Below the pieces are notes generated by a model. The model was given only the letters and a program-made list of their open reading frames with translations, was not told where the DNA came from and made no database searches. Below are positions 2-52,204 of a stretch of DNA of 54,447 bases, piece by piece. Numbering within the stretch: position 1 is the stretch's first letter; each line of letters begins with the position of its first letter. The translations under genes were made by a program, and so were the position numbers. The stretch is taken from positions 1 through 54,447 of the forward strand of contig JAGVYR010000033.1 of the NCBI GenBank assembly GCA_018303185.1, written 5' to 3'. The stretch comes from Candidatus Woesearchaeota archaeon. Its GTDB lineage: Archaea > Nanobdellota > Nanobdellia > Woesearchaeales > GW2011-AR4.

Positions 2-124
2 ACAAAGGGAGAAAACCATGTTGGAATGTTCAACTTAACGCCTGTGCTTTATGTCCTGGAGATGGGCAATATAACTTCTGTCAACATAACCAATGCTGTT
101 GAGGCAATGATTGGGCTGGCTTAA
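2..124 (+). CDS. C-terminal end of an upstream protein (partial)
   Basis: Open frame from the window edge ...TKGENHVGMFNLTPVLYVLEMGNITSVNITNAVEAMIGLA*; its stop overlaps the next start (TAATG). Confidence 0.5.
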   Translation, partial: TKGENHVGMFNLTPVLYVLEMGNITSVNITNAVEAMIGLA

Positions 125-3100
125 TGGGGTGGGAAGAAAGCTTCAATAAAATGCCAGAGAAAGGGCAGATAGGGACTGCGGCTTTCCTAGTTTTAGTAGG
201 CTCTATCGCCCTAGTTGCTGCTTTCAATCTTACAAACGAATCCGCTGCAAACGAGTCATTAAATCCGTATTTAGTTTTTAATAATACATATGTGATTTCT
301 ACAACAGATAATACATCAAATTCTACTGCATCAAATGTCTTAATAAATTTCTCAGGCATTATAGAAAACTTTACTTTTCAAAACCTCAATGATACAACCC
401 CTATTAACTTAACTACAAACCAAAGCAAGCCTGCTGCCAATGCAAAACTAAATAAAATCAACATAACAGAAGCCCTGAAAATGAACAAAGGCAAGGTAAA
501 CAAGATAACGGAGGATTTTCTCTCTAAAGCTTTCTTAAACGACACTGGAAAGTTCCTGATTAAGTTTAAATCTGGAGTGGATGCAGGTAAGCTGGAAAAC
601 GTCTCGATAAGCAAGTCTGTAAACCTTTTTGATGCTGCCATTGTAGATGGAAAGGCAAAGGATATAGCTTCCCTGCTTTCCGATTCAGAAATTGAGTATA
701 TTGAGATAGATCAAAAAGTAACAATAATAGGAGATGGAATTCCCTATAATATCAATAAAGTTAAGGCTCCTTTGGCATGGAATTTAAGCAATGGAACTGG
801 AGTTAAGGTTGCTGTGCTTGATACAGGAATTGGGCATCATTCGGACCTTAACGTTGCAGGCGGAGTTTCCTTTTTGGACAACAATTATTGGGATTCAAAC
901 GGGCACGGCACTGAAGTGGCTGGAGTTATTGCTGCTACGTTAAATAATGATGGAATAGTGGGCGTTTCCCCTGCTGTTTCTCTTTATTCTGTCAAGATAA
1001 TGCAGTATTCCACAGGCGACCTGAGCAATGCTATCGCTGGAGTTGAATGGTCAATTGAGAACAACATGAGCATAATCTCTATGTCTTTCGGCATTGAGAG
1101 CTATTCCCAGATATTTAAGGATGTTTTGCAGGAAGCTTATGATGATGGAATAATATTGGTGGCTGCTTCTGGCAATGAAGGAACAGACACAATATTGTAT
1201 CCTGCCGCTTATTCTTCTGTCATAGCAGTTGGGGCAACAACAGCAAATGATGAGCTGGCTTACTTTTCATCATACGGCTTTGAGCAGGAGCTTGTTGCGC
1301 CAGGAGTTGACATAAATACAACCACCTTAAGGGACGGCTACGGCACTGCTTCCGGCACTTCTTTGGCTGCTCCCCATGTAACCGGAGTAGCTGCATTGAT
1401 TAAATCTTTTAACGATACTTTGACAAACACTGAAATAAGAAATAAATTAAGGAATGATGCTATGGATTTGGGCGATGCGGGAAAGGACGATTATTTCGGA
1501 TACGGGCTTGTTCAGGTAAATTTACAAAGCAATAACTTTTCATATATTAATGATTCATATTACTATGAAATCTTTGATATCACCGATTATGGATTTGAAA
1601 ATGAAAGCTACTGGTTCTGGCTGGAAGGGAATGGGAGTGTTGATGATGTTGATTTCGAGGAAGGGTATTATTTAATCAATATAACTTTTCAGAATGGTAA
1701 AAATTACTTAAAACACTACAATGTTACAAAAAACGGGAAAACTTTTTTGATGGAACAAATAATATTTTTACATGATGACGACTATAGCCAATACGGTTCC
1801 AGTAATGATGGGATATTATGGAAAGATGGAATTTACAGAGTTAAATTAGATAGCGAAGTGCTTGGTGCTGATGCAGATTGCTATGATACTGACTCTGATT
1901 GGACTGATATGGAGTATTGTCTTGCAGGAACGTCTGGAGATATGGATGCGTGTGATAACCTCCAATCAGAAATTAACTGTAATACGTTCACTGATTGCGA
2001 ATACCCCGTTATCATTGGAATATACCATCCTATCTTGAATACAGGAACCATTTCTACTTATAATGTTAGAGAAGAAGTTAGTGCGTATTGCGGGACATTA
2101 AATGAAACCAATAGGGGAGATGTAACAAGAACTGTATATATTATAGATAAAATTAGGGCAAATTGCCTAAACCTTACTCATTATAATGTTGAAGGGCATT
2201 ACGGAAGCAACAACTGGGTTAATGTAGAAACACTTGAATGCACAGGTACTGCAGATCTTTGCAGTAATGATATGGTAAACTACACTACCCCTAGTTCAAC
2301 AGTAGATCCATGCGTTATCATGAATTCGTGCAGCGGCAACGTCCAAGTAATAACCCAGGACTCTAAAGGTGAACTTCTTAATAATCTTCTTGTGACGAGG
2401 GAATCTGTCTCGAATCAGACGACATCTGACGGCTTCATCAACTATAACATGACCAGAACCTGTGGCCAAGACATAGACTTTGACGTTTACTGTTCTGACA
2501 ACACGACCTACTGCGGTTCCAAGTCCGCTTCCATGGACTTTAACGGAGATTTTGACAGCTTGGTGTTTGATTGCTCCGTATGCTCAGGCGCGCCTGATTT
2601 GGCAATTGATTTAGGCTCCATAAATGCAAACCAAAAATCCGGGAATGTATATACAATAAAAGTCAACATCACAATAGACGGAAGCTTTGCATTGAGTGAT
2701 GTAAATGTTACAGTAAAAGGTCAGAATAAGGACACTGGATTGATAGAAAGGGAGAACAGCACCTTAATCAGCATTGCCTCTTCTGATAGGAGCAAATTGG
2801 CCAGTATAAATTTTGACATTTCAAATATCAATTACTTGAACATATATGTGGATACTAAAAACAAGGCAAAAGACCCAAGAGACAATAATTATGTGCTGTA
2901 TCCCTTCATCAAGAGGAAAATTGCTGCATATCTGGATATAAATACTGGAGTTACTGCTGCGAACACGGCAATAAGGAACTACCTTAAGGCTTTTGTAGAT
3001 GAGAAAAGCACGCAAGGCCAGGCTACAGTGACAATTTCTGTAGGCAAGAAGAGCCAGTTTGCTAATGTTAACACCTATCAAAATTTCTATACATTAGAGA

Positions 3101-4458
3101 ATTACGGTTGGGGTATTGGGACTGCCAATTCTGTTTTATACAACAAGAAATCATTGAGTTTTAGGCCTTATACCGGTTTAGTGGGAGGATTTAGCGATGG
3201 CAGTAATTTCTACATCTTCGCCTACGGAAAGGACATTGAGGGAGACATAGCCACTTTAAAGAAGCTAATAAGCCAATCAAATATATTCTTTTCTGAGGGT
3301 ATAGTGAACCAAGAGCGCTTAGAGATAATTGATGATTTCGATACTATTGGGATAAAAGTAATGGATATAATGCATAATCCGGAGAATCATCAGTATTATA
3401 GGCAGAACAATGCCAAGTTTGCCGATGTCATTACCAAGATATTGAACGATAATAATTTTGAGATTGCTATTAAAACTGTGATGAGCAATACCTCTAATAC
3501 GCAAAATTCTACCTTAAGGCTAAAGAACCTGAATTCAGACTTATCGGACGATTACAGAGATACAATAATTAACACCAGCAAGCCGGTAGTTCTATCGGGT
3601 GGAATATTCAGCAATCTTTTTACGTTTGAAAATGGTTTAGGTGGAGAACTGGCCAATGAAGGCTACGATGTATGGACTATAGAGCTTACAGGAGGTCCTC
3701 AGATTGAATGCGACAACTGCTACGATTATACATACGATGATTTGGTAAATGGCTTCTGGCCTACCTTAGTGAGCGGAGTTTTGGAATATTCCGGGAAAAA
3801 TAAAATTGACTATATTGGACATTCTAACGGATGTAGGGTAGCTCTGTCCTCGTTGAATGAGTATTCCAACGGAAAAGGGGATGTCGGGTTTGCCTTTGAC
3901 ACCCAAACTGGAAAGTTTGATACATTGATGGACCTTCCAGCCAATCCTGTGGACAAGTTTTTTGGGATTGGGTGTCCAGTTACTTTAAGTGCTAACTCTC
4001 AAACTAAAGAGAATATTGAGAACCTTAAAAATGGGATACCAAGAGGGAGGCTAGCAATAGCAAGCTTAAATTCATCATCTGCTAAACATATTACCAAAAG
4101 AGATTTTGTAAAAGCTTTGTCATTTGTAGGGAAGATACCTGTGATTAACTATCTCTTTGATGATAATAATAAAATCGCATTGAATTTAATGAATTTTTAT
4201 GTTGAACAATACCTAGCAAATAATTATACCAGCCCTTTTAATTTAAGTTTAAACGAAGCACATTTGTATATGGGGGATGAAGTACCTATAACTCACATTA
4301 ATACCGATAATGATGGTGCAGTCCCTATTCAAGACATATACATCTTAAATCAATCAATAAGCTCCCCATTTAAAACAGCCAATATATACCATGAAACCCA
4401 CTCAGGCATTCTTGAAAATAATAAAATGAAGGAGGATATTGAAAAGAAACTAAAATGA
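124..4458 (+). CDS. Secreted/membrane-anchored subtilisin-like (S8) serine protease with C-terminal alpha/beta-hydrolase (lipase-like) domain
   Basis: S8 triad motifs VAVLDTGIG, NGHGTEVAGV, GTSLAAPHVTGVAALI; N-terminal KGQ + hydrophobic segment; CARDB-like region APDLAIDLGSIN...; C-terminal GHSNGCRVALSSL nucleophile elbow with downstream Asp (DNDGAVP) and His (ETHSG). Confidence 0.9.
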   Translation: MGWEESFNKMPEKGQIGTAAFLVLVGSIALVAAFNLTNESAANESLNPYLVFNNTYVISTTDNTSNSTASNVLINFSGIIENFTFQNLNDTTPINLTTNQSKPAANAKLNKINITEALKMNKGKVNKITEDFLSKAFLNDTGKFLIKFKSGVDAGKLENVSISKSVNLFDAAIVDGKAKDIASLLSDSEIEYIEIDQKVTIIGDGIPYNINKVKAPLAWNLSNGTGVKVAVLDTGIGHHSDLNVAGGVSFLDNNYWDSNGHGTEVAGVIAATLNNDGIVGVSPAVSLYSVKIMQYSTGDLSNAIAGVEWSIENNMSIISMSFGIESYSQIFKDVLQEAYDDGIILVAASGNEGTDTILYPAAYSSVIAVGATTANDELAYFSSYGFEQELVAPGVDINTTTLRDGYGTASGTSLAAPHVTGVAALIKSFNDTLTNTEIRNKLRNDAMDLGDAGKDDYFGYGLVQVNLQSNNFSYINDSYYYEIFDITDYGFENESYWFWLEGNGSVDDVDFEEGYYLINITFQNGKNYLKHYNVTKNGKTFLMEQIIFLHDDDYSQYGSSNDGILWKDGIYRVKLDSEVLGADADCYDTDSDWTDMEYCLAGTSGDMDACDNLQSEINCNTFTDCEYPVIIGIYHPILNTGTISTYNVREEVSAYCGTLNETNRGDVTRTVYIIDKIRANCLNLTHYNVEGHYGSNNWVNVETLECTGTADLCSNDMVNYTTPSSTVDPCVIMNSCSGNVQVITQDSKGELLNNLLVTRESVSNQTTSDGFINYNMTRTCGQDIDFDVYCSDNTTYCGSKSASMDFNGDFDSLVFDCSVCSGAPDLAIDLGSINANQKSGNVYTIKVNITIDGSFALSDVNVTVKGQNKDTGLIERENSTLISIASSDRSKLASINFDISNINYLNIYVDTKNKAKDPRDNNYVLYPFIKRKIAAYLDINTGVTAANTAIRNYLKAFVDEKSTQGQATVTISVGKKSQFANVNTYQNFYTLENYGWGIGTANSVLYNKKSLSFRPYTGLVGGFSDGSNFYIFAYGKDIEGDIATLKKLISQSNIFFSEGIVNQERLEIIDDFDTIGIKVMDIMHNPENHQYYRQNNAKFADVITKILNDNNFEIAIKTVMSNTSNTQNSTLRLKNLNSDLSDDYRDTIINTSKPVVLSGGIFSNLFTFENGLGGELANEGYDVWTIELTGGPQIECDNCYDYTYDDLVNGFWPTLVSGVLEYSGKNKIDYIGHSNGCRVALSSLNEYSNGKGDVGFAFDTQTGKFDTLMDLPANPVDKFFGIGCPVTLSANSQTKENIENLKNGIPRGRLAIASLNSSSAKHITKRDFVKALSFVGKIPVINYLFDDNNKIALNLMNFYVEQYLANNYTSPFNLSLNEAHLYMGDEVPITHINTDNDGAVPIQDIYILNQSISSPFKTANIYHETHSGILENNKMKEDIEKKLK

Positions 4459-4874
4459 AAATCGATTTAAAAAACGTAGCTAAATTAAACGTTATTTATA
4501 TTTTAATTGAATTTTTTATATTTCTTTTTGCAGCCTTAGGATTTTTCAGTTTTTTCGTTAGAAAATGTAGTGGTTTAGATTTTGGATGCGAATATGAAAC
4601 AATATTTTACATTCAAGGAGTTGTCAATCTATCATTTGTAATATACGCAAGACAAAAATTTAAGCAACAATCATTTGCAGATAGAGTTAGTAATCTCTTT
4701 TTAGCTAGTATAATACCGATTAGCATAATTAACTTTATGATTTATGAATTTACATACTCTAAACTTAGGATATTTACCTTACTAATTGTTAATATGCTAA
4801 TCATTCTATTATTGGTGATTTTGTCATTAAGAATTCATTTTAAAAAGAAATTTCGAGGGAAAAATGATAGATGA
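4455..4874 (+). CDS. Small polytopic membrane protein (candidate immunity protein 1)
   Basis: 139 aa, about 4 predicted TM segments; ATGA overlap with upstream hydrolase-domain gene. Confidence 0.75.
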   Translation: MKIDLKNVAKLNVIYILIEFFIFLFAALGFFSFFVRKCSGLDFGCEYETIFYIQGVVNLSFVIYARQKFKQQSFADRVSNLFLASIIPISIINFMIYEFTYSKLRIFTLLIVNMLIILLLVILSLRIHFKKKFRGKNDR

Positions 4875-6168
4875 CTGCTACGACTCCACTTGTTATAGCT
4901 TGGTAAACCAGTGCTGGTGTGCATTGATTGTAATGGTTGCAGAATGCCAACATAGAAACCAGTCAAACATCTTCCTTTCTGAAAGCATTGTGAATCAGGA
5001 AAGGCTAGAGATAATTGACGATTTTGACACTACAGGCATTAAAGTAATGGATATAATGCACAATCCTGAGAATCATCAGTATTATAGGCAGAACAATGCC
5101 AAGTTTGCCGACGTCATTACCAAGATATTGAACAATAATAATTTTGAGATTGCTATTAAAACTGTAAAAACGACAAATGACAACACTACTCTGAGGATGA
5201 AGCATGTTAACAGCGATTTCTCAGTGAATTATACCGATGCTGTTGGCAGCAGCAGCAAGCCTGTTGTGCTGGCAAGAGGCTTGTGGAGCAACCTCCTTAC
5301 TTGGTTGGATTTCGGCCAGGAACTGGCATTTGACCAAGAAAATGCAAGGGATGTGTGGCTTATCGAGATTACCGGAGGCCCCACTATTGACGGAGATTGC
5401 CAGCCAAATGGAAAGTATGCTTGCCCTAACTATGGATACGAAGATTTAACTGATTATTACTGGCCTGCGCTCATAACTGGCGTTCAGAATTACTCTGGAC
5501 AGAAAACTCTTGATTACGTTGGATTCTCAAATGGGTGCAGAGTAGGTCTAGATGCCCTTAAGAACTGGTCTGCTTCTGGGAAAAGTAATGCAGGATATGT
5601 GTTTGATTCAACAACTGGAAGCTATATCTTGTCTGACTTATCCACTCAGCCAGTTGACAGGTTTATCGGTGTTGGATGCCCTGGAGCTTTTGAGGGTGAA
5701 TCGGCGTTTAGCGAAAATTTTGGTCAACATGGGCAGGATGTGTTAGATTTCTTTGCAAGAAATGGAGCAGAGCATGTAACTGGAAGAGATATTGGGTTAA
5801 GGTTACAAGAAGAATGCGGATTTTTCGATATAAAATGTCAGATTGCAGCTACTAGTTTACAAGAAGTGGGAGAGAATAGAATTTCTAGAAATCTTGGGTC
5901 AGATTACTTAAATTTTATTACTAGCGCAGCAGACCAACAACCGGGATTAAACTTACAAATCCCAAGATTATTAATAATTTATGGAGAACATCCTTCTGGA
6001 TTAGAACAATTAAGCGATGGTGTCGTAACAGCAGAAGATGCGTTTGCAATATTAGCTGCTGTTAATGGCACCAGTGAAGGCATTTTAAGAGTTAATGGCG
6101 TAGACCACTCTCAATTACCGGACAACGGAAACACGAAATTTTTGATAAGGAGGAATTTAAATGACTGA
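4864..6168 (+). CDS. Orphan alpha/beta-hydrolase C-terminal module (candidate orphan toxin tip 2)
   Basis: SIVNQERLEIIDDFDTTGIKVMDIMHNPENHQYYRQNNAKFADVITKIL... matches the C-terminal part of the S8 protein; GFSNGCR elbow, SDGVV Asp, VDHSQL His; no signal peptide. Confidence 0.8.
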   Translation: MIDDCYDSTCYSLVNQCWCALIVMVAECQHRNQSNIFLSESIVNQERLEIIDDFDTTGIKVMDIMHNPENHQYYRQNNAKFADVITKILNNNNFEIAIKTVKTTNDNTTLRMKHVNSDFSVNYTDAVGSSSKPVVLARGLWSNLLTWLDFGQELAFDQENARDVWLIEITGGPTIDGDCQPNGKYACPNYGYEDLTDYYWPALITGVQNYSGQKTLDYVGFSNGCRVGLDALKNWSASGKSNAGYVFDSTTGSYILSDLSTQPVDRFIGVGCPGAFEGESAFSENFGQHGQDVLDFFARNGAEHVTGRDIGLRLQEECGFFDIKCQIAATSLQEVGENRISRNLGSDYLNFITSAADQQPGLNLQIPRLLIIYGEHPSGLEQLSDGVVTAEDAFAILAAVNGTSEGILRVNGVDHSQLPDNGNTKFLIRRNLND

Positions 6169-6484
6169 AGAAAAACTACGTCTAAAAAACAAGAGGATAA
6201 AATACTGTATTATTGGGATTATTTTTGGTATTTTTGGTGCTATTTATGGATTTTTATCCTATAAGTACAATATTGGGGAATCGTTAAGTGGGATTTTATT
6301 CGTGCTACCTTACAAATTCTATCTTAAGGTATACCCTATCCTAAATTTATGCCCTTATGATACAACATCTTTGTGTGCTTGGTTTGGCTTGTCGCTAGTT
6401 GTATTTACCGCTCCCATATATTACGGAGCATTGGGGTATTTAATCGGCTATATAGTCGAAAAAATGTCAAAGAACAAAAAATGA
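6161..6484 (+). CDS. Small membrane protein (candidate immunity protein 2)
   Basis: 107 aa, 2-3 hydrophobic segments; overlaps genes on both sides. Confidence 0.7.
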   Translation: MTEEKLRLKNKRIKYCIIGIIFGIFGAIYGFLSYKYNIGESLSGILFVLPYKFYLKVYPILNLCPYDTTSLCAWFGLSLVVFTAPIYYGALGYLIGYIVEKMSKNKK

Positions 6485-7839
6485 TTGAACTTCAAGAACA
6501 AGAAATTATTGGAATAGAAGCTTTCAGCTGGATAGATAGAATTGGAAACCCTGCCAGTGACATAGATGGCGATATAGCATCAGTAAAGAAGCTTGTATCT
6601 GCCAAAGACCTGTTCTTCAACCGCGATTTGCTTACGCAGGAAAGGACAACGGTTATTGATGATTTGGACTTGACAGGGATTGGGGTTGCCGACTTGTTAA
6701 GGAGCCCTTCAAACTTTCCTTATTATTCTGACAGGACATCTGATAGGTTCGCTACAGTAGTGGAAAGAATACTGAATAATAACAACTTCGAGATTGCCGT
6801 TAGGACAGTAAAAACCACAGATGGCACCTCTTACGGGCAAAATACAACTTTGAGATTGAAGAACGTGAATTCTGACCTAAGCAATAATTACAAGGATGTG
6901 CTGGTGAATGGCTCCAAGCCTGTTGTCATGTCTGGAGGCATATTCTCAACCTTAACCGCATGGGAAAACGGAAACTCCAGAAATGGGTTAGCTAACGACT
7001 TGGTGAATGATGGCCATGACGTGTGGGAAATAGAGATGAACGGCGGGACTAACACGGAATGTGATACGTGCCCTGATTATACATATCAAGACCAAGTGGA
7101 TTACTTCTGGCCTGCTTTAATAGCGGGAGTGATGAATTATTCCGGCAAGAATAAGATTAATTACATAGGACACTCTAACGGGTGCAGGGTTGCTTTATCT
7201 TCACTGAATTCGTATTCTCATGGGAAAAATAATACAGGTTACACTTTCAATTCAGAAACAGGAGAATACGATATAAGTGTTGACTTGCCAAATCTGCCTG
7301 TTGATAAGTTCTTTGGAGTGGCTTGTCCTGGGGTTTTGAATGATGATACTTCTTTTACTTCATCCACAAGGGTCAATGTAATCCCTATTATAGGTCCAAA
7401 GCTGGGCTATTTTACTATGGATTTAATATCTGATCCACATGTTAAAATGAGGGATTTTACAATAAGGGCCTTGCCCTTCTTATTGAATCGTGGTGAAATT
7501 AGTTTAGGTAATTCACTCCTAACTATTGGAACTTTAATAGAACCGAGTGAAATATCAAGAAATCTATTGGACTACTATGTCAACCTATCAGTTCAAGATT
7601 CGTCAACGTTTGTCGTTTCGAGTGTTGATGTAGGAAAAATTGAGTTATTTAATGGTAAGCCATCGGATTTTATTGTTCCTTTTGAAGATCAACAATCAAT
7701 ATTAGATGGGTTAACCATATCTGAAAAGAGCGGTACCTCTATCAGTACTGGATTGTTTCCAATTCCTCTGATAAATGATCACGCTTCTATGAAGGATAAT
7801 AGCAAAGTCAAAACAAATATTAGGGAGGAACTAAAATGA
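6481..7839 (+). CDS. Orphan alpha/beta-hydrolase C-terminal module (candidate orphan toxin tip 3)
   Basis: DIDGDIASVKKLVSAKDLFFNRDLLTQERTTVIDDLDLTGIG aligns to DIEGDIATLKKLISQSNIFFSEGIVNQERLEIIDDFDTIGIK of the S8 protein; GHSNGCRVALSSL. Start placed at ATG 6481 (ATGA overlap), inside the listed ORF 6373-7839. Confidence 0.8.
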   Translation: MIELQEQEIIGIEAFSWIDRIGNPASDIDGDIASVKKLVSAKDLFFNRDLLTQERTTVIDDLDLTGIGVADLLRSPSNFPYYSDRTSDRFATVVERILNNNNFEIAVRTVKTTDGTSYGQNTTLRLKNVNSDLSNNYKDVLVNGSKPVVMSGGIFSTLTAWENGNSRNGLANDLVNDGHDVWEIEMNGGTNTECDTCPDYTYQDQVDYFWPALIAGVMNYSGKNKINYIGHSNGCRVALSSLNSYSHGKNNTGYTFNSETGEYDISVDLPNLPVDKFFGVACPGVLNDDTSFTSSTRVNVIPIIGPKLGYFTMDLISDPHVKMRDFTIRALPFLLNRGEISLGNSLLTIGTLIEPSEISRNLLDYYVNLSVQDSSTFVVSSVDVGKIELFNGKPSDFIVPFEDQQSILDGLTISEKSGTSISTGLFPIPLINDHASMKDNSKVKTNIREELK

Positions 7840-8345
7840 AATCCGATGTCTTAGACAATCTGGAAAAACCAATCTACGCATCGTTTTTTATTGCATTTGC
7901 AATGACTTTTTTATTTTACACTGTTTACATAATTGGAGGAGTATTCTATAAGATCATTCCTTTCTCTTTAGTATCTTATGTAGTGATGATAATTGTCTGT
8001 AATTATATCTTGCAAAAAATATCGACAAGAAATGATATGCTAAGTAAGAGCATAGCAATCTCGTCATTAATAATCCCGTTATTCTCTATTTTATTGCTCG
8101 TGTTGGGTAAATTTGTAGGGTCGTTTAATCAAGAGACGCAGTTTATCACTCTTGAAATTGGTGGACCATTAGTTATTGTTGTGGCTTCTTTTCTATCTGC
8201 AATTTTAGAATTTAGGAACTCTAAAAGCAAAATAAGTTTTATCGCAATTCTAGCTAAAACATTCCTGTTTTATCTTATTGTATCAATTTTAGTTGTAATT
8301 GTATCTATAATTCCAATTGTATTTTTAAATCCAATAATAGGTTAA
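7836..8345 (+). CDS. Small polytopic membrane protein (candidate immunity protein 3)
   Basis: 169 aa, about 5 TM segments; ATGA overlap with upstream hydrolase module. Confidence 0.75.
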   Translation: MKSDVLDNLEKPIYASFFIAFAMTFLFYTVYIIGGVFYKIIPFSLVSYVVMIIVCNYILQKISTRNDMLSKSIAISSLIIPLFSILLLVLGKFVGSFNQETQFITLEIGGPLVIVVASFLSAILEFRNSKSKISFIAILAKTFLFYLIVSILVVIVSIIPIVFLNPIIG

Positions 8346-8348
8346 AAT

Positions 8349-8423
8349 ATGGAAAACGGAAACTCAGGGAACGGCCTTGCAAATGACCTATTATATGACG
8401 GCCATGAGCAGGAGATTAAATGA
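8349..8423 (+). pseudogene. 24-codon remnant of a further hydrolase module
   Basis: MENGNSGNGLANDLLYDGHEQEIK* matches WENGNSRNGLANDLVNDGHDVWEIE in the 6481-7839 protein; stop overlaps next start (ATGA). Confidence 0.75.
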
Positions 8424-11005
8424 TAGATAAAACGACCAGATGGATTGCATACTTAATCCTGCTAGTCTTAGCCGCATCCTTCGCCTCTGCCGCCAACATG
8501 ACGATAAGCCAGCTCATAAATTCCTATGATTATTCCTATTACAACGGGACTATAAATGTAACTTCTTACAATGACTATATGATTGACAAGGATTCCAACG
8601 GAAAGAACGACACTCTGATAATAAACTTGACAACAGACGCAGGCAGCGGAACTTTCACTTTCATAGCCGAGATAGACAACGGAGACAGCATACTGGTGAA
8701 CAGCACTTTAAAGGCTTTGACTGCATCAGACAAGTCAGCAGACATAAGATTCCCATCAGAGCTGCTTTCAAAAGAGAGATTCAACTACAGCATAAGGATT
8801 AACAACAATAATGAGAGCCTGGTTTTCAGGAAATTCAATATAGAGATAAAGAAGTATACAAACTATGAAACAGGCACAGCCATCCTCTCTACAGCGGATG
8901 AAAATGTAAATAACAATTTCCTGAGAATAAACCTTACAATAAATTCAACAGCAGCCACAACAGAGAATATTACTGTAACTTTAGCATATAACTCATCCAC
9001 AATCTCAAAGACAGAACAAAAGACGTTAAGCACTGGAATACAGACAATGTCAATAGACTTTGACAATGAGACAGTTAAAAGCACTCATTTTTATGGCAAT
9101 TTCACCATACTCTCAGCAGTGATAGGCAGTAAGGCTTTTGACATCAATACAAACACTTCAGTTTATAATTATGAGGATTTTGCCCAAACTTCCTACATAA
9201 AATCAATTTCTGACGGAAAAACAGACAGCAACAATAACAACCTTTCAGAATTTTTGGAAATAAACTTCACTATTGAAGTCAAGGAAGCGGCCACATACAC
9301 TGTAAGCTATGATTTGTATGATGAATTTGACAATTTTGTCACAAATATAAGCAAAAGCCAGTCCTTGAACACAGGAAACCAAAAAATACAGACCTTAGCC
9401 AATGGAACTCAAATCTACAAGGCAAAGGTAAACGGCCCTTACTTATTGACATACGCAAAGCTTTCAATAGGCAACGACACAAAGGACATACTGTTTGATG
9501 CGCATACAACAAACCAAAGCTTCTACACTGACTATGAAAGGCCTCCGCTACCCGATCTTAACGTAAGCATTGATGTCTTTTTTGATGAATCTACAAATGC
9601 GACGAATATAACTGTAAACATAAGCAATGACGGGACAGCCCCAGCCTTTAATGTATTCCTGGACATTTTTGACAATACTACTTATAACAATAACAGGAGC
9701 GATGCCTTCCTGGATGTTGGAGAGTCTATTGCCTACAAATTTAACATAACCGGCAGCTCAAACGCAACTTTATATACGGCAATAGCCGACTTTGACAATC
9801 TTGTGGATGAAAGCGATGAAACCAACAACATAGCCCAAAACACAGAATCAGCAGCCCAGGTTGTTTCCCTAGCCATAGACTCAATAACCGAAATCCTGAG
9901 CAACGGAACCCTAAAAACGTTTGAATTTATTATCCATAATGACGGCGACACAGAAGTTACAGATATTTACTGGAATTTTGACACTGATGACAATAATATT
10001 ATCCAGAGCACTGAAAACATAACCTCGCTGGCAGCAGGAGAAAGGGCTTTTGTTTACTTAAAGCATAATTTTAGCACTCAGGGCACTTTTAATGTAAAGG
10101 CTAACGCAACAGGGCTTTCACAAAGCGGGGAAGTTTCAGCCTTTTTGACATCAACTGTAAGCATTGGAGACTTAATAATCAGCTCATTTGATGATTTAAG
10201 CCTAATAGGGCAGGATGCGATATTTGAGTTTAATGTGCTGAACAACCAGGAAGGCAACCTTTCGGACATAAACTGGACATTAAGCGCAGGGGATGGGTCA
10301 ATAATCAACGCAACCCAGACTGTAACCCTGTCAGGCAACGAAACCATCTTTGGCTATGTCAAGCATTCTTATGCCTCAACTGGCACTTTTAATGCCTCAT
10401 TAACAGCAGAAAGCGGCTCAATAAGCGATTCTGCAAGCACAATAGTGGAAATAGCAGACCAAACCGAAAACATGCTGCTTGACTTTGAATTGGCTTCCCA
10501 GAATTCAACAAAAGCGACTTTCAGCTTTAAGATTAACAATACGGAGCAGGGCAACTTAACAGGAATTAACTGGACTTTGGATAACGGGGAAAGCATAATG
10601 GCCGCTTCATCATTAATAAATCTTGAAGAAAATGAGACGCTACTTGTTTTTGCTTCACACAGCTATCCCAATACCGGAGATTATGGGGCTACAGCCACAG
10701 CATTTACAGACTCAATCTCTGATTCAGACACTATCAGCTTTGATTTGGAAGATATTGAGCTGAGAAATCTTACAATAATGAATGCAAGCGGGAATTACAG
10801 GCTGTTTGAGATTGTCATAGAAAATGCCCTTCCAACAAACCTGACCAACGTCTCATGGGCATTTGACACTAAAGACAGCAATGTAATAAACAGCACTTCC
10901 ATCTTGATATTGCAGCCGGAAGAAGCAGCTTTCGTCTACGTAAGCCATAATTTCTCCACGACAGGAAGCTATAATGTAAATTTTCTATATAATTTTCACT
11001 ACTAA
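8420..11005 (+). CDS. Secreted protein with repeated CARDB/Ig-like domains, C-terminus apparently abrupt
   Basis: Signal peptide MIDKTTRWIAYLILLVLAASFASAA; CARDB-like NVSIDVFFDESTNATNITVNISNDGTAPAFNV; repeated LxxGExxFVYxxHNFSTTGxxNVxA units; final unit stops mid-repeat. Confidence 0.8.
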   Translation: MIDKTTRWIAYLILLVLAASFASAANMTISQLINSYDYSYYNGTINVTSYNDYMIDKDSNGKNDTLIINLTTDAGSGTFTFIAEIDNGDSILVNSTLKALTASDKSADIRFPSELLSKERFNYSIRINNNNESLVFRKFNIEIKKYTNYETGTAILSTADENVNNNFLRINLTINSTAATTENITVTLAYNSSTISKTEQKTLSTGIQTMSIDFDNETVKSTHFYGNFTILSAVIGSKAFDINTNTSVYNYEDFAQTSYIKSISDGKTDSNNNNLSEFLEINFTIEVKEAATYTVSYDLYDEFDNFVTNISKSQSLNTGNQKIQTLANGTQIYKAKVNGPYLLTYAKLSIGNDTKDILFDAHTTNQSFYTDYERPPLPDLNVSIDVFFDESTNATNITVNISNDGTAPAFNVFLDIFDNTTYNNNRSDAFLDVGESIAYKFNITGSSNATLYTAIADFDNLVDESDETNNIAQNTESAAQVVSLAIDSITEILSNGTLKTFEFIIHNDGDTEVTDIYWNFDTDDNNIIQSTENITSLAAGERAFVYLKHNFSTQGTFNVKANATGLSQSGEVSAFLTSTVSIGDLIISSFDDLSLIGQDAIFEFNVLNNQEGNLSDINWTLSAGDGSIINATQTVTLSGNETIFGYVKHSYASTGTFNASLTAESGSISDSASTIVEIADQTENMLLDFELASQNSTKATFSFKINNTEQGNLTGINWTLDNGESIMAASSLINLEENETLLVFASHSYPNTGDYGATATAFTDSISDSDTISFDLEDIELRNLTIMNASGNYRLFEIVIENALPTNLTNVSWAFDTKDSNVINSTSILILQPEEAAFVYVSHNFSTTGSYNVNFLYNFHY

Positions 11006-35711: not shown

Positions 35712-37139
35712 ATGTCAGAACACAATGGCGGGCACGGCTCTAACTCTAAACTGAGCAAATACGGGTTTACAGAGGAGACAGCTGAAGAGACAAGAAAGAA
35801 TACAAGCATCCCGACAGGCTATCCGAAGCCCAGCAGGCGCTACAGGCTTCATTACGAGGCTTATAACATCTCCATTGAAGAGCCGTATTTCTGGATTTTG
35901 CATTACCTCAGGTACTTTCAGGGCTACCATCACATAGAGAAGATAACTGATGTTTTCGCTGCTGCCGAAAACTCATCGTTCTTCGGAGCCAATCAGCAGC
36001 GCCTTGGGCTGCAGCAGGAAAAGGTGTCCCAGTATCTTGCAACAATAGGGAAAATGGTACGTGAATTGTTCCAGCTTGTGCGCGAATTAAGGGTCATCGA
36101 TGAAAGGCTTTCTTATTATGCAGACTCTTACTCAAACAGCAGGAGCCAGGAGAGCGCGGAAATAACCCTGAAAGGGATTTGGGTGGACATGGTGGAGCAG
36201 GGAGCAAAGAATCCCGCATCTGTTTATGGCATGGCGCGCGAAGTCCAGTTTACTACGCTGCCTGACTTATTTTTCTCCACTCATCCGAGAAAATCCGAGG
36301 ATGTGGATGAAGTTGTTGACAGGGAAAGAAGCGCATTCAACAGGAAAGTGAAAGAGGTTTTGAAAAGAAAGCTGAGAAGCTTCATGGCGTGGAAGGAGCA
36401 TACTTATGAGGAGATGAAGAACAGGCGCATCTTCACCCTCAAATACCTGAGGCAGCATTATGAGATCATAAGGATGTACATGGCATGGGTAAGGCCCTAT
36501 CTCAAGAACATCCAAAGGCTTAATCTCGACCAGAAAAAGGCAGACACTCCGGACATAATAACCGCTTTCGAGAATTCCATGATTGAAGTGGAGCTGCTGG
36601 CAAAAAAAAGCGAGGGGAAGGCAAGCAGCGTAGTGGTGATGCATTACCTTTACAGGATAAGGCCCGAGATGAACTATTCCCAGGAATACAACCGGGGCCC
36701 TTTGCATCTCGGCCGTGTCGAGATTGACTTCAGGTCATACGGCTGGACTGATGGGGAAATCGAGAACTACAGGAGGATGAGGGCAGAGGAGGACATGGAG
36801 CTCCTCGGGGTTGTCGATGCATCCGTGAAGGCAGCCATGGAATCTCTCGGCGACGAATTGATGCGCTACCTTCAGGAGGCGGGAGAGGACATGCCAATCC
36901 ATAAAAAGGAAGATGCTGCAAAGAAGCTGGCCTCACCGCACGCTTCAGTGTTCAAGGGCTTCAGGGAGATGTTCACATCCTTCAGCGGGCACAAGGCTGT
37001 AAGGGCACACAAGAAGCCGAAGAGGGATGACCTCTACAGGCTTGCAAAGGGCAAGAGAGCTGCAGCGACTTCGGCATCAGCAGCAATATGGAACATTTAC
37101 CACCACTTCAAGAAGCACCACGGGATGCTGAACTGGTAA
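35712..37139 (+). CDS. Hypothetical protein (475 aa), charged, helical
   Basis: Long ORF, no recognised domain. Confidence 0.75.
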   Translation: MSEHNGGHGSNSKLSKYGFTEETAEETRKNTSIPTGYPKPSRRYRLHYEAYNISIEEPYFWILHYLRYFQGYHHIEKITDVFAAAENSSFFGANQQRLGLQQEKVSQYLATIGKMVRELFQLVRELRVIDERLSYYADSYSNSRSQESAEITLKGIWVDMVEQGAKNPASVYGMAREVQFTTLPDLFFSTHPRKSEDVDEVVDRERSAFNRKVKEVLKRKLRSFMAWKEHTYEEMKNRRIFTLKYLRQHYEIIRMYMAWVRPYLKNIQRLNLDQKKADTPDIITAFENSMIEVELLAKKSEGKASSVVVMHYLYRIRPEMNYSQEYNRGPLHLGRVEIDFRSYGWTDGEIENYRRMRAEEDMELLGVVDASVKAAMESLGDELMRYLQEAGEDMPIHKKEDAAKKLASPHASVFKGFREMFTSFSGHKAVRAHKKPKRDDLYRLAKGKRAAATSASAAIWNIYHHFKKHHGMLNW

Positions 37140-37335: not shown

Positions 37336-39609
37336 ATGCAATTCAATACAGGCTATAACCCGGAAGCGCCCAATGCATACAGGCAGATGCATCCGATGGC
37401 AGATTATGTCGGCGCCATGGACCCTGAAGCATACGGCCATACAGCCCCCCATAGCCCTGAGCATGGAAGCTATGCAGAAGATTCCGGCGGCACAGAAGAG
37501 CTGAGGCTGGGAGTCAATGACATAGGCATGTCCGTTCCCATGGGAATAAGCGCTGCAAATGTTGCAGGCATCTATTCAAAGATAAGGATGGGCGCAGGAA
37601 ATCTTGAGCTGCAATTCCCGACTTACAGGCAGGGCAACAGGAACGCGCAAAGCCCCGGAATGTACGGCGAGGACCAGAGGCAGGCATTGAGAGAGATGCA
37701 GGAAATCAATGAGGTCCGCTTCACAACCCACGCGCCTTTCCAGATAATGGGGATGATGGGCAGGGATGAAAGGGGAAATTATTCCCTCAACGGCTCAAGA
37801 AGAGACCTTGATGAATTGAAGAGAGCAATAGATTTCCAGGCTGACTTGGGAGGCGGCTCTGTCGTGTTCCATTCAGGCGAATTCGAAAGGCCCATGATAG
37901 ATATGGTTCTTGATGACGAGACCGGGCAGTTAAATCTCGCCCGCGACCAATCAGGGAGGCTTTTGTTCAAGGAATCTGCGGCGCAGGAGCAGGATGCGCA
38001 GTTCCAGATAATGGATGACAGGACATCTGCAAAAATGGAAACAGTCCAGAAGGACAGGCTCGTCGCATATGCAAAGTGGCTAAAGGCTGACAGGGACCAT
38101 GAAGGGGAGGATCAGGACGGCAATCCGGTTTTCATCAGAAAAGGAGATTATGTAGATTATGAGGGCCAGAAAGTGATTAATCCATATGACAAATACAGGG
38201 GAAGAGTTCCAGAATTCAATAAAGACACTGGCCGCTTCGAGACAAGGATGATGCACTTTGATGATTTCAGGAAAGAAGCCAATGAATACAACGAATGGCT
38301 AAAGAACAACTGGAAAACAGTGATGAGCACTGATAAGGGATGGAATGAAGACCCAAGATGGTACTACAAGAAAAAATATCCCGAGGAATCCTTTATTGGA
38401 GCAACATTAGAGACGCAGGAAGGATATTCACGAGGCTGGAGCCTGCATCTGGGGCAGGAGTCAGGAGACATAATCAAGAATCTGGACAAGTTAAACAAAG
38501 CTATAGAATTTTATAAAAAATTGGATAAATCAATCCCGGAAGAAGAGAGATGGAAATTAACAATGCAGGAAGGGGCAAGCCATAGGATGGGAATAGCATC
38601 ACAATTAATTCCTTCTGAATCTAAAAGCCCGCTTCAGGCTTTGGAGGAAGCCAGAAAAGATATGCAAAGAGCTTTGGAATACTCCCGCCAGTCCTCTTCA
38701 TCCCAGGAACAGCAGGCAGATGATACAAGAGAGACAAGAGAGCACCTCATAACTCCGATAAAAAGGCTGGAGAAGTACGGCGTCTTAAATTACGCAGAGG
38801 CAGCAGTGCATGCAATGGAAAGGACAAAGAATCCGAACGACCCTGTAGTTGTCGCAATAGAAAATCTGTTTCCGGAAAGGTTCGGCGGCCATGTGGAAGA
38901 ATTGAAATGGATAATAAAGAAATCAAGAGAGAGGATGGTGGACATACTTACAAAGCCGTATGTCGAGCTTGGAGTTTCAAGGAATCCAGTTGATATGAGT
39001 GAGGAAAAATATAAGCAGGGCCTTTTGCAGGAGAATCCACATTTCAAGTCGGGAATAAGCAGAGGAGAGGCAGAGAGGCTGGCAGAAAAGCACATCAAGG
39101 CAACCTTTGACACAGGGCATCTTAACCTGTGGAGAAAGTACTGGCAGCCAGACCCCAAGCTGACAAAAGAGCAGAATGACGCTGAATTCAGGAGATGGTA
39201 TCTGGGCCAGGTTGAGTCTCTTGCAAAGGAAGGGATGGTTGGAAACGTACATCTTGCTGATAACTATGGGGATCAGGATGAGCACTTAAGCCCCGGCCAG
39301 GGAAATGCTCCTGTCAAGGAAGCAATGGCCATAATAAAGAAATACGGCTACGACAAGGCCATTACTGTAGAGCCCGGAGCAGACGCTTCCACAGACTTAA
39401 GCGATTTCCACGGGCTTATGAAAACATGGCGCCTCTTCGGCTCACCCATCTACGGCATCGGAGGCATAGGCGGAGGCCCGGGAGTTCCGCAAAGGTGGGG
39501 CGACATCCAGTACAGCTACTTCGGCCAGAACCAGCCGCCAAGATACACTTTTGGGGCTTACGCGCCAAGCAACGACTGGACTTTGTGGAGCCAAGTTCCA
39601 ATGGAGTGA
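37336..39609 (+). CDS. Xylose-isomerase-like / AP-endonuclease-2-like TIM-barrel protein with large insertions
   Basis: GGGSVVFHSGE, VVVAIENLFPERFGG, ATFDTGHLNLW, GNVHLADNYGDQDEHLSPGQG, KAITVEPG metal-site style motifs. Confidence 0.7.
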   Translation: MQFNTGYNPEAPNAYRQMHPMADYVGAMDPEAYGHTAPHSPEHGSYAEDSGGTEELRLGVNDIGMSVPMGISAANVAGIYSKIRMGAGNLELQFPTYRQGNRNAQSPGMYGEDQRQALREMQEINEVRFTTHAPFQIMGMMGRDERGNYSLNGSRRDLDELKRAIDFQADLGGGSVVFHSGEFERPMIDMVLDDETGQLNLARDQSGRLLFKESAAQEQDAQFQIMDDRTSAKMETVQKDRLVAYAKWLKADRDHEGEDQDGNPVFIRKGDYVDYEGQKVINPYDKYRGRVPEFNKDTGRFETRMMHFDDFRKEANEYNEWLKNNWKTVMSTDKGWNEDPRWYYKKKYPEESFIGATLETQEGYSRGWSLHLGQESGDIIKNLDKLNKAIEFYKKLDKSIPEEERWKLTMQEGASHRMGIASQLIPSESKSPLQALEEARKDMQRALEYSRQSSSSQEQQADDTRETREHLITPIKRLEKYGVLNYAEAAVHAMERTKNPNDPVVVAIENLFPERFGGHVEELKWIIKKSRERMVDILTKPYVELGVSRNPVDMSEEKYKQGLLQENPHFKSGISRGEAERLAEKHIKATFDTGHLNLWRKYWQPDPKLTKEQNDAEFRRWYLGQVESLAKEGMVGNVHLADNYGDQDEHLSPGQGNAPVKEAMAIIKKYGYDKAITVEPGADASTDLSDFHGLMKTWRLFGSPIYGIGGIGGGPGVPQRWGDIQYSYFGQNQPPRYTFGAYAPSNDWTLWSQVPME

Positions 39610-45285: not shown

Positions 45286-48200
45286 CTACCTCTTCCTCAT
45301 CATAAGCATCGTAACCAATGCCGCAACAAGCCCTGAGGCAAGCACGAAATTAGCTGCAAGGAAAATCAGATAGCCGTTGCTTTCCATGAATGTTATGCTT
45401 GTCGCAGGAACAGCTTCAGGCTCTGTCACAGGCGGCCTGACAACCTCAACAGGCTGGCTTGGAGACTTCACAGCCTCTTTTGCCTCGCTTATTCTTTCGC
45501 AGTCCTGCACGGTAAGCTCAAAAACCCTTGAGTCGCTCAGCTTCGTATCATCATAATAGGCATTGACTGCTATTGGATAAATCCCCTTTCCAACCGTCTC
45601 AGGAACCATGAAAGTCAGGGATTTCTGGTATTCGATGTCATCGCTGCCTTCATCAAGCTCAATATTCTCCTGCCTGAAATCAAGCCCAAGCTCACTGCCA
45701 ACAATCTCAACAGCAACTTCATCCTCTTCATCCCTTCCGAGATTTAGTATTTCCGTGCTCAATGAAACAGCCCTTGTGCAGGATACAGAAGAAGGCGAAA
45801 CACTAAGCTTGTTAATGTACAGCTCATGCTTCTCCTTATCAACTTCAAGCAGGACTTCCCATCTGGCTTCATGCTTCGTGTTGTTTTCATCCTCGCCTTC
45901 AGCCCTTATAATCACATCATAGTCCCCTTCGGTTATCTTATAGGGAATGTCAAAGCTTATTGATATTGTGTCCTCGTCATCAGCGCTCAGGTCGAATTCG
46001 CTGGCTTCCTCCTCAAAGTCATCCCCGTCATCTATATCTTCTATAATCACTTCAACCTTGATGTCCTCTATGTCCAGGTCTTCAGCGTTTGTGAAAAGAT
46101 TTGAGACTTCTATCTCGAATTCAACATCAGAGCCCGGGCTGACTTCTTCGCTTACCCTTGTGTTGTTTGCGACATTCTTGTCGCTCTTCCCGTCAACCTT
46201 GACATCAAGGTCAGTTATTGCAAGCCTTGGGCCTTCCGATACCCTGACTTGGAAACTCTGGTTGTCTGTGAGGATGCCGTCGCTCACGAGCACTGTCACG
46301 TTATGGGCTCCAAGCTGGCTGGAGACTGGCTGCCAGCTAATCAGGCCGGAGGAGCTGCTTATGCCCATGCCGCTTGGGAATTTTAAGAGAGAGTATGCCA
46401 ATGTGTTTCCGTCAGGGTCATCTGCATTCACATCATAGCTGTATGATTCTCTTAGGGTGGCTGAAGTTTTTGCTGCAGATGTAATTATAGGCGCACCATT
46501 AGTCGTGTTTGTCTGCGCAAAAAATGCCGTGAAATGTGCAACACTGAAGCTCAGCTTTCCGTTTGTCCTGTTGTACCTTATGTTTGAGCATATATTTGAA
46601 GGGCAGGCAGCGCCTCCTGAAGCCTTGAATCCAGATGCCATGAATATTAAAGGCGTTTTTGTGAAGTTCAGGCCTTTCATTACAAGCGATGCGGATTTGT
46701 TAAGGCCGGGAAAATTGGCAGTATCAATTGCAACAACCCCTTTGCTGATGTTTATTGCGCTTTCAAGCTGGGTAATCCCGCTGAAATTCAATGTGTTGCC
46801 ACCAAAATTAATTCCGCCATTGGCGCTGCTGTTAATGACAACATTCTTGACAGCTTCAAGCTGCGATGAATTAAGATTTGTTATGTTGCTTGTCAGGCCT
46901 GTAGAGTTCAGCTGGTTGGTTACTGCCAGTTTCCATTCCCTTCTTGCCTTGGCTCCTGAGCCGTCAGTCGCAATGGCTGTTATGTTGTATCTGCCTTTTG
47001 CCAGTCCGCTCACTGTGACACTTGTCCCGCTGCCTATGCTTGTCTCATTCCTGAACCATGCGATTGCCGCTGTGTCTCCTGTGTCAACATCAGAAACGCT
47101 TACTGAGAACTGCTGGCTTCCTGCGCTTTCGGCAATTGTCGTATTTGAGGCAGGGCTGAATGAGCTTATTGCCGGCGCGTCATTCACATTGCTTACAGTG
47201 ATTGTTACAGTGTTGCTGCTTGTTATGTTTACGCTGTCGCTGGCCCTGAATGTGACTGTATTTGTCCCGTTAAAGTTTGCAGAAGGCGTTAGAGTGACAG
47301 CTCCTGTTCCGGAATTTATTGAAACCCCTACATTGCTCGGAGTTGTGGAGCTGAACGTGAGTGCATCAGAGTCTGGGTCTCTGAAGTAAGCCTTCAGGTT
47401 CAATGAGCTGTGTACAGTATCCTCGCTCATCGCAACATTGGGGATTGTCGCATTGTTCACAGGAGCATTGTTTGGCGTTGCCAGGAATGAAAATTTGCTT
47501 GAATTCGAGCTGTTCTCCATTCCGTCGCCTGCAACAACAAGCCACCTGTATGTTTTTCCTTTTGTAAGGTTAGTTATGGTTATATTGCGGCTGGTTGTGC
47601 TCCTGTTGAATTTTGGATTGGTATGGTTGGAGAAATATACAAAGTACGTTATGCTGCCGCTTTCTGCATCTGTAGAGGCGCTCCAGTTCAGCTTTACAGA
47701 CTTAAAAAGCACATTGGCGCCGTTTGCAGGCGTGGAAAGCACAGGGGCTGCAGGTGCGTCATTCACAGCGCGCACTGTGACAGTGATGGGATTTGAAGAG
47801 TCGCTGAACTCGCCGTCATTTGCTATGAGTATTATGTTGCTCTCAGCGCCGTTGAAATCAGCAGGAGCGGTCACATTCATTATCTTTGTAGTCTGGTTTA
47901 TCTTTATCACAACATTGCTGTTGCCAACTGCTGTCCATGTTATCGCGCTTAAGGCAGTGTCCTCATCCGTCACATACTTGCTCAGGTTTACCGAAGCATT
48001 GTGCGCATCTTCATCAAACCCTATGTTCGGGATTGCCAGCACAGCAGGAGCCCTTGTATTTGCAAAGGTGACATTCAGTATAACAAGGCTGCTGCCGTTC
48101 GCGTATATGCCGTCAGTCGCATTGAATGTTATGTTTCTAACTCCATAGAAATTTGCTGATGAGGCTAATGTTGCAACGCCGGTATTATTGTTTATCATTG

Positions 48201-50370: not shown

Positions 50371-50452
50371 ACATGAAGGAATGGGCGGGCGTTTTATAAA
50401 TATTATTGTTATGAAGTGACTATAAAATTTAATCTAAAACAAGTGGTAAAAA

Positions 50453-52204
50453 TTACTTCTTCTTCATTGCATAAGAGGCAAGCCCCACAGCTCCTGCGCC
50501 AAGCACAACGGTAGCGCCAAGCAGAATCAAAATATTCCTTCCGAAAGCCGGCTCCTTTGTTTCTGTCACTTTTTCCTTTATTACAGGAACTCCGGTCAGG
50601 TTGACTTTTCCATTGGCAGCTTCAGGCTCCTGCCCGGCTTGTGTTTCCTGCCCTTCCTCTTTAACTTCAGGCTCCTGCTCAGGCTCAGCCGTTTCCGCTG
50701 CCGGCTCAGTTTCGGCACCGCACGCCTTCACTTCCAGAGCGGCAGTATCTATCGTATAGAGTATCTCTCCGCCTGAAAGATAGGCATTGATCCTTATCGG
50801 GTAATTTCCTGGAACAGCATCCTTTGGCACCGCTATATCCAGCTCTTTGTCGTACTTGCTGTCATCGTCAAAAGGCACAGCGTCTACTTCAATATCCTCC
50901 TCAGCGAAATTTATGCCCAGATCCTTGTTTATTATCTCTACTTTGACGTCATCCTCATCCTTTGTGCCTATGTTCATGACCTGGACATTCAGCTGCGCGT
51001 TCCTGTTGCAGCTTACTGATGCAGGGAAAAGGCCCTTTTTTGTAATAATAATATCCCTTCTTTCCTTGACAACCTTCATATGCAGCTCCATCTCAATTAC
51101 ATGATCCACTCCGTCCTCATCGTTGCCTTCTATTGATAAAAGAATGTCATAGCTTCCGTCCCTGACTTCAAGGGGTATGTCGGCTGTGATGAAAATGCGC
51201 TCTTCGTCTCCAGGAGATATGGTGAATTCCGGGCTTTCCTCCTCAATATCCTCGCCGTCGTCAATCTCCGGTATTGTCACAGTTGCAATTATATCCTCAA
51301 TGTCAGGATCCTCATCGTCATCTGTAAAGAGGCTCTCAGCATCAATCTGAAATTCAAGACTTGAGCCGGGCTTTACATGATCTTCAAATTCCAGAGTGCT
51401 GCCGTCAGCAGCATCATTGAAGGTGTCAGTGTCCCCGTCATAATAAGTTATGTGCACGTCAAAATCATTTATTCCGAGCTTTCCGGACGAAGCGACATTT
51501 ATTGAGGATACTGTCTGGCTGAAGCTGCCCTGCGCCATCATTATATCGCCCACTTTATGGTTGGACGCTGCTTCATCATGAGGGATGAAATAAGTCACTT
51601 TTATCTTGGTGCTGCTTCCCTGCGTAAGGCTGAATGCTGTCCTGTTGAACGAAACGTTGTTTGCAGCAGGGGCATTGCTTGACGGAATTATGCTGGTAAA
51701 ATTCCCGTTGCCGTTGTTTGTCAGCGTTATCACATCAGAATATGTCCTGTTCCTGATTGCATTGGTCCTTGTAATTGAGCTTGGCGCCGCGCTCAGGCTA
51801 AGGCTTGGGGTGACATTGACTGTTATGGGCATTGAATCGAACCTGAATCCGTTTGACTGGTTTGTAATGTTTATCGTTCCTGAATAGGTGCCTGTTGTCT
51901 GGCTTCCTGATATTGTGAAGCTTATGCTCCTGGAAACAGACGCAGAGCCGTTCTGAAGGCTGCTTATGCTGCTTATCGGGCCTATTGAAATTGTGTCAGT
52001 GCCTTTTGCCAAAGTTGTTCCTGTAAATGCAAGGTTAAGCGCAGTATTCCCCGTATTGTTTACATTAATCGTGCCCGCAACCGACTGGCCCTGCCTTCCT
52101 GAAAGAGCCAGAGAGCTTTCAATTATATTGGCGCTGCCTGCTGCACTCGCTATGTATGGCAGGCATATCGCGGCCATTAAGAAAATCAATAGTGTTTTTT
52201 TCAT
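50453..52204 (-). CDS. Secreted CARDB/COG1361-like surface protein with C-terminal TM
   Basis: Signal peptide MKKTLLIFLMAAICLPYIASAA; Ig-like domains; acidic module; C-terminal ILILLGATVVLGAGAVGLASYAMKKK. Confidence 0.85.
   Translation of the reverse strand: MKKTLLIFLMAAICLPYIASAAGSANIIESSLALSGRQGQSVAGTINVNNTGNTALNLAFTGTTLAKGTDTISIGPISSISSLQNGSASVSRSISFTISGSQTTGTYSGTINITNQSNGFRFDSMPITVNVTPSLSLSAAPSSITRTNAIRNRTYSDVITLTNNGNGNFTSIIPSSNAPAANNVSFNRTAFSLTQGSSTKIKVTYFIPHDEAASNHKVGDIMMAQGSFSQTVSSINVASSGKLGINDFDVHITYYDGDTDTFNDAADGSTLEFEDHVKPGSSLEFQIDAESLFTDDDEDPDIEDIIATVTIPEIDDGEDIEEESPEFTISPGDEERIFITADIPLEVRDGSYDILLSIEGNDEDGVDHVIEMELHMKVVKERRDIIITKKGLFPASVSCNRNAQLNVQVMNIGTKDEDDVKVEIINKDLGINFAEEDIEVDAVPFDDDSKYDKELDIAVPKDAVPGNYPIRINAYLSGGEILYTIDTAALEVKACGAETEPAAETAEPEQEPEVKEEGQETQAGQEPEAANGKVNLTGVPVIKEKVTETKEPAFGRNILILLGATVVLGAGAVGLASYAMKKK

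Follow-up and report, generated by a model that had tools for sequence, protein, structure and literature searches.

A candidate polymorphic effector-immunity locus built on a lipase-type hydrolase in a nanoarchaeotal genome

Organization of the locus

The window analyzed here, 54,447 nucleotides (nt) long, is contig JAGVYR010000033.1 of Candidatus Woesearchaeota archaeon assembly GCA_018303185.1, i.e., contig C46 of a host genome of 1.62 Mb in 76 contigs. It opens with an array of forward-strand genes in which a secreted S8 protease ends in an alpha/beta hydrolase and is followed by alternating small transmembrane (TM) proteins and further hydrolase modules. We consider it likely that this array is a polymorphic effector-immunity system of a Nanoarchaeota (Woesearchaeota-like, DPANN) archaeon, in which the hydrolase would be toxic, the TM proteins would confer immunity, and the carrier would provide delivery. 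The genes for EF-1A, EF-2, and an S10-like protein downstream of the array in the window identify the host as archaeal.

The array starts 123 bases in from the contig edge with the gene of the carrier (124..4458; 1444 amino acids (aa)), whose S8 domain is followed by a CARDB-like middle and a C-terminal hydrolase, C1 (residues ~1030-1444). The N-half of C1 (3211..3975) comprises the linker, the first strands, and the nucleophile elbow GHSNG as far as GIGCP and is the conserved, recombining part, while the C-half (3976..4455) contains the lid, the Asp, and the His and is of variable class A. Behind the carrier lies TM1 (4455..4874; 139 aa, ~3 TM helices), the proposed C1 immunity gene, which has the Shine-Dalgarno sequence GGAGG and an ATGA overlap with the carrier gene. 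Two orphan hydrolase cassettes without signal peptides follow, each with its own proposed immunity gene: C2 (4864..6168; 434 aa, class B C-half) with TM2 (6161..6484; 107 aa, Shine-Dalgarno AGGAGG), and C3 (6481..7839; 452 aa, class C C-half) with TM3 (7836..8345; 169 aa, ~5 TM helices, Shine-Dalgarno GGGAGG, ATGA overlap). The start of C3 is most likely the ATG at 6481, which forms an ATGA overlap with TM2, rather than the upstream GTG at 6373. A remnant of a fourth hydrolase cassette (8349..8423; 24 codons, a partial C3-type copy) comes last.

All of these genes lie where the preliminary description had placed them and in the same order. Its statement that the open reading frames (ORFs) overlap throughout needs a small correction: most junctions are overlaps of 4-11 nt, but a 3-nt gap separates TM3 from the remnant. 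The elbow GHSNG, likewise, is found in C1 and C3, but C2 reads GFSNG. The three modules are paralogous as claimed (C1/C3, 43% identity; C1/C2, 54% over 288 aa; all E<=1e-78), and C1 and C2 remain 87.6% identical at the DNA level across 210 bp. The 24-aa ORF after TM3 matches C3 (73.7% over 57 nt, E=1e-5), in agreement with its description as a hydrolase remnant. The first ~31 aa of C2 resemble a decayed hydrolase core (blastp E 7e-4; hidden Markov model alignment to positions 165-195); these weak matches suggest that the stretch is probably a scrap of another module, in which case a further module has probably been deleted at the 5' end of C2.

The carrier and its export

The N-terminal part of the carrier matches Peptidase_S8 in Pfam (E 9e-56), and the S8 triad motifs DTG, GHGTEVAG, and GTSLAAPH are all intact. 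An NCBIfam search retrieved only generic subtilases and sub-threshold matches. The N-terminus of the carrier, MPEKGQIGTAAFLVLVG, looks like a class III (prepilin-like) signal of archaea, and motifs of this kind (KGQI, RGQA, and KGEL) were seen on several S8 carriers (window 124-200 and loci L033 and L038; module loci are given L numbers throughout). Such signals on S8 carriers could mean that the proteins are handled by a prepilin peptidase and displayed on a pilus-like structure.

Nearly all carriers of hydrolase modules have signal-peptide-like N-termini, and members of this one hydrolase family are found behind interchangeable carrier N-termini, i.e., an S8 protease, an FG-GAP propeller, a NosD beta-helix, or an uncharacterized region. 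The preliminary description of the system as S8-based thus holds for the window, but several carrier types exist, of which S8 is one. Proteins without a Pfam match (~490 aa or ~212-236 aa) were observed just upstream of S8 or other carriers at L035, L037, L038, and L033, at L112 and L113, and at L139; in the window, the region upstream of the carrier lies beyond the contig end.

The hydrolase module

AlphaFold models of C1 and C3 both show a complete alpha/beta hydrolase (C1, predicted local distance difference test score (pLDDT) 80.7 and predicted template modeling score (pTM) 0.80; C3, pLDDT 80.4 and pTM 0.78). The closest solved fold is that of lysosomal acid lipase 6v7n (Foldseek E 5e-10), and the closest profile relatives are also acid lipases (E 1.6e-7, nucleophile half only). 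We propose Ser1234, Asp1397, and His1426 as the catalytic triad of the carrier hydrolase, and the corresponding Ser, Asp, and His are invariant or almost so in a 25-row alignment. The Asp sits in a "DG-x-VP" setting, which we take to be like that of LCAT-type lipases. Similarity to the Tle3 Pfam family, seen in single members, is weak and under the Pfam cut-off (E 0.02; E 0.002 in one of 25 members). Profile search and the two structure models bear out the earlier suggestion of a lipase-like tip with a conserved Ser-Asp-His triad. Gastric lipase 1k8q, like 6v7n, is among the closest solved relatives; unlike these acid lipases, the hydrolase described here is fused to a protease carrier, and its C-half varies between genera.

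We found 77 distinct hydrolase-module ORFs, all in Nanoarchaeota (DPANN). The species-genome collection contains 32 loci, in genomes labeled Woesearchaeota, Pacearchaeota, other Nanoarchaeota, or unnamed archaea; the family is present in 42 of 353 genomes of the order (about 12%), and in a phylum sample of 371 genomes all 20 positives came from that same order. The host genome itself has two further loci, one at the end of contig C33 and one on contig C11, where a 1069-aa FG-GAP carrier is followed by a TM gene and then an orphan cassette. No module relatives were found in the viral contigs scanned, and a viral origin was rejected on this basis. A known anti-phage defense system was also considered and rejected, as there was no PADLOC match.

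Pairing of hydrolases with small TM genes

Fifty-seven of the 77 modules have an intact 3' end and sufficient downstream sequence to be assessed for pairing. A module was counted as paired if the next same-strand gene began within 30 nt and encoded 80-205 aa with at least two TM helices, as predicted by a simple hydropathy window. By this definition a small multi-TM gene directly follows the module in 52 of 57 cases, compared with 8 of 247 for the other genes of the same loci, and 16 of the pairs are joined by a 4-nt overlap. Shine-Dalgarno sequences precede 29 of the 52 TM genes versus 130 of 386 background genes, an enrichment so modest that we do not count it as general evidence.

The partners follow the class of the hydrolase. 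TM1 is homologous to the TM partner of a class-A module on host contig C11 (E 5e-12), TM2 to that of another class-B module in genome G014 (E 7e-13), and class-C modules elsewhere have TM partners of 145-199 aa. Among themselves, TM1, TM2, and TM3 have no detectable similarity, and profile comparison of their classes gave probabilities of at most 5%, confirming the earlier impression that they are unalike. Neither of two alternatives named in the preliminary description, a conserved hydrolase with no paired gene or TM proteins belonging to one transporter family, was encountered: the hydrolases are variable and nearly always TM-paired, and hhalign comparison across the TM classes found no common family.

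Some matches fall outside this pattern. At L031 (G000:C33, locus 7110-8568), where the contig end cuts the module, the gene that follows is predicted to encode a 135-aa lipoprotein (LAGC lipobox) that is not multi-TM and is possibly a different type of immunity protein. An isolated TM2 homologue on G016:C31 (L166, E 1e-6) could represent an orphan immunity gene, or else a small membrane protein with no connection to the system. Two matches in G002 appeared unrelated and were set aside.

Co-variation and recombination within the enzyme

To compare the two parts of the enzyme, modules were split after GxGCP into an N-half (nucleophile elbow) and a C-half (lid, Asp, and His). First Mantel tests, with raw rank correlation of normalized scores, gave weak or non-significant results in subsets (p 0.16-0.23), since similarity is not measurable for most TM pairs. 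A shuffle-corrected z-score and TM length were adopted as the TM measures after the raw scores had proved noisy. With the N-half controlled for, the partial r between C-half and TM similarity is 0.68 over all 48 pairs; in the 36 pairs whose TM protein is at least 93 aa, a set that leaves out the conserved group of short TM proteins, it is 0.31 by z-score and 0.38 by length (partial Mantel p=0.0002). The N-half, with the C-half controlled for, shows no such relation to the TM protein in these 36 pairs (partial r -0.01 and -0.04).

The halves also have different histories. In the window, C1, C2, and C3 belong to one N-half cluster but to three C-half classes (A, B, and C), and classes A and C are scattered over the N-half tree. 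Class A as a clade is rejected by the N-half data (approximately unbiased (AU) test, p 6e-12), and the C-half data in turn reject the group that window C1 and C3 form with L126 in the N-half (p 0.001). As the classes were defined from C-halves, only the rejection by N-half data is independent of their definition. In pairwise alignments, identity falls at GxGCP, as seen for window C1/C2, the L112 pair, and L032 versus L038; in the L112 pair, nucleotide identity is 71-92% before GxGCP and 36-45% after it.

Comparison of orthologous loci, which the preliminary description had expected to reveal a constant protease with exchanged tips and partners, gave a similar picture. Between the window carrier and five other S8 carriers, identity is 56-72% in the S8 domain, 41-55% in the module N-half, and down to 22-32% in the C-half, with a different TM gene alongside. 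Tip swapping together with the paired TM gene is thus upheld insofar as C-half and TM gene co-vary, but the swapped unit is the second half of the enzyme and not a whole toxin domain. Exchange of different toxin folds on one carrier was not found, all tips being of the same alpha/beta hydrolase family, in a search that began from this hydrolase and did not seek other tips on these carriers.

These results bear on the simplest account of the locus, namely that an ordinary secreted hydrolase gene was duplicated in tandem by chance and decayed, with unrelated small ORFs between the copies. Some copies are plainly decayed, as in the C2 5' end and the remnant at 8349-8423. Against this stand the excess of TM pairing over the background and the partial Mantel result given above, the origin of the modules from many families, and the fact that C2 and C3 stay open for more than 400 codons, and we regard chance duplication as very improbable.

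Orphan cassettes and remnants

Cassette arrays are found in the window and at L030, L032, L033, L112, L113, and L122. L122 has four consecutive modules, each with its own TM gene, the last being cut by the contig end; in three of the four, the first ~140 residues are missing and the sequence starts at one and the same model position, so that folding into a complete enzyme would not be possible. Truncated final hydrolase copies occur at L033, L034, L038, L041, L112, and L113. At L139 (G010:C19, 198-932), only the last ~77 aa of the hydrolase remain, joined to a signal peptide, and the 101-aa TM gene that follows is intact; judged from its sequence, this arrangement is a deletion product retaining the proposed immunity gene. 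The orphan tip/immunity cassettes first described for the window therefore have counterparts elsewhere, as arrays, as remnants, and as a TM gene beside a truncated hydrolase.

The same loci help to weigh whether the hydrolase might be a surface enzyme, either a nutrient lipase or an envelope-modifying acyl hydrolase or transferase, with the TM protein as its anchor, chaperone, or activator and the pairs arising by tandem duplication. Bacterial lipases can have dedicated membrane-anchored foldases, and an obligate enzyme and partner would also predict near-universal pairing and co-variation. One large group (L042-L049 and similar), belonging to one family, is moreover stable, with FG-GAP carriers of ~1050 aa and a well-conserved TM protein of 80-91 aa. 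However, many orphans lack a signal peptide and those of L122 lack ~140 residues as well, so that they are not working exported enzymes, and yet their TM genes are kept; at L139 a TM gene survives behind a mere 77-aa stub. Three unrelated TM families serving one hydrolase family, and N/C recombination with remnants of the kind typical of diversifying conflict loci, also speak against a surface enzyme, which we consider unlikely. Orphans and remnants are in keeping with a silent donor store that has retained its immunity genes, and they agree poorly with an enzyme and its chaperone.

Proposed mechanism and points against it

In the effector-immunity system that we favor, an exported carrier, here an S8 protease, would present or release a C-terminal lipase-type serine hydrolase, which the S8 domain may free by processing the carrier. 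The hydrolase would act on the membrane or envelope of neighboring cells and harm them, while the small multi-TM protein encoded behind each hydrolase would block its own hydrolase at the membrane and so protect the producer, presumably by recognizing the variable C-half with its lid, Asp, and His. Downstream cassettes without a signal peptide would be a silent store of alternative C-halves and immunity genes. Homologous recombination via the conserved N-half could then place a new C-half and TM gene behind the carrier, with the old pair demoted.

Several points weigh against this interpretation. The lids of alpha/beta hydrolases are generally variable, and divergence of the C-half alone proves little; our argument therefore rests on tree conflict and co-variation. 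Tree conflict was itself not significant when C-half data were tested against the N-half grouping of the L112 pair (AU p 0.08). Similarity between TM proteins of a class is often undetectable, with z>4 in 16% of within-class pairs and 0% of between-class pairs. Two modules with similar hydrolases, L032_8326 and L033_8133 (N 0.91, C 0.61), have unrelated TM partners (z 1.2), which means that hydrolase and TM gene are not paired strictly one to one. The group with ~1050-aa FG-GAP carriers is vertically stable and not obviously polymorphic; it possibly represents a domesticated form of the system. Finally, archaeal lipids are ether-linked, so that it is not obvious how an ester lipase could damage the membrane of its producer, and it is puzzling that a membrane antidote should be needed.

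If the producer does need protection at its membrane, the target of the enzyme would be a component of the archaeal ether-lipid envelope. We tentatively raise the possibility, with more doubt than for an effector-immunity system as such, of a DPANN-specific weapon whose specificity is changed by swapping only the second half of the enzyme along with a non-homologous multi-TM immunity gene, and whose target would be an ether-lipid envelope component new as a toxin target.

Comparison with known systems

Zhang et al. (2012, PMC3482391) describe bacterial polymorphic toxin systems with alpha/beta-hydrolase tips near lipases (Tox-ABhydrolase-1/2/3) as well as carriers that contain subtilisin proteases; by their account, most lineages of archaea generally lack such systems, the rare exceptions being found among methanoarchaea and haloarchaea. 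The present locus shares with them a secreted multi-domain carrier, a variable C-terminal candidate toxin, a downstream proposed immunity gene, and standalone cassettes, but differs in that the proposed immunity proteins are diverse proteins with 2-5 TM helices and the hosts are DPANN archaea. It also differs in that the recombination point lies inside the hydrolase, only the second half and the TM gene being changed. Since all tips belong to one hydrolase family and only the second half is exchanged, we regard the locus as a variant and not as a typical polymorphic toxin system.

The Tle and Tli proteins of the type VI secretion system (T6SS) are lipase-fold effectors paired with envelope immunity proteins, and the window likewise has a lipase-fold effector candidate paired with an envelope protein. 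Unlike for Tle/Tli, there are no T6SS parts at the locus, the carriers are of the S8, FG-GAP, or NosD type, and the proposed immunity genes follow the effector and encode multi-TM proteins. A comparative-genomic prediction of archaeal toxin-immunity loci, reportedly by Makarova et al. in mBio in 2019, may list some members of the family as candidates.

The VARTIG proteins of Thermococcales (2021, PMC8416519) are close in layout, being long secreted archaeal proteins with a variable C-terminus, short downstream homologues of that C-terminus, and branch-specific membrane proteins. Their hypervariable C-terminus is an Ig domain in which no toxin can be identified, and a system of this plan could serve in kin recognition or self/non-self discrimination, with the variable half and the TM protein as matching labels or receptors and no killing. 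The adhesin-like CARDB/PKD and FG-GAP parts would suit such a role. In the window, unlike in VARTIG, the variable part is an enzyme of lipase type whose triad is conserved, and sequences and lineage are unrelated; a pure label would not need a triad, which nearly all copies keep. We consider recognition without killing improbable, a little more so than a surface enzyme.

DPANN archaea live touching other cells, and little is known of their means of competition and recognition. The module family can be detected by its sequence, and the pairing rule that comes with it can be tested. Should the hydrolases prove toxic, the locus would provide a defined weapon-antidote system for DPANN archaea and would raise the issue of which part of an ether-lipid membrane is open to attack by a serine lipase. 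The breakpoint within the enzyme amounts to a natural experiment on the hydrolase surface that the immunity protein would recognize.

Neighboring genes

The gene next to the array (8420..11005, forward strand) overlaps the remnant by ATGA and encodes an 861-aa CARDB/PKD surface protein, the conserved 3' boundary of the array. Another 18 module loci have a homologue, which in 17 cases lies on the same strand downstream of the module, usually right after the last cassette, and the gene is part of the same unit as the array. Its N-terminal ~480 aa are conserved, while the C-terminus differs between loci, with PKD in the window and with Ig and CBM96 in L034. We propose that the protein is a surface stalk or adhesin partner.

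Farther downstream in the window, positions 45286-52204 encode two large tandem secreted proteins, one of 1694 aa (LTD, cadherin-like, and Ig domains) and one of 583 aa (CARDB/NPCBM-like), which may be related surface proteins. The gene at 37336-39609 encodes a protein of 757 aa whose TIM barrel is xylose isomerase-like (AP_endonuc_2), and it adjoins the gene of a 475-aa protein without a Pfam match at 35712-37139.

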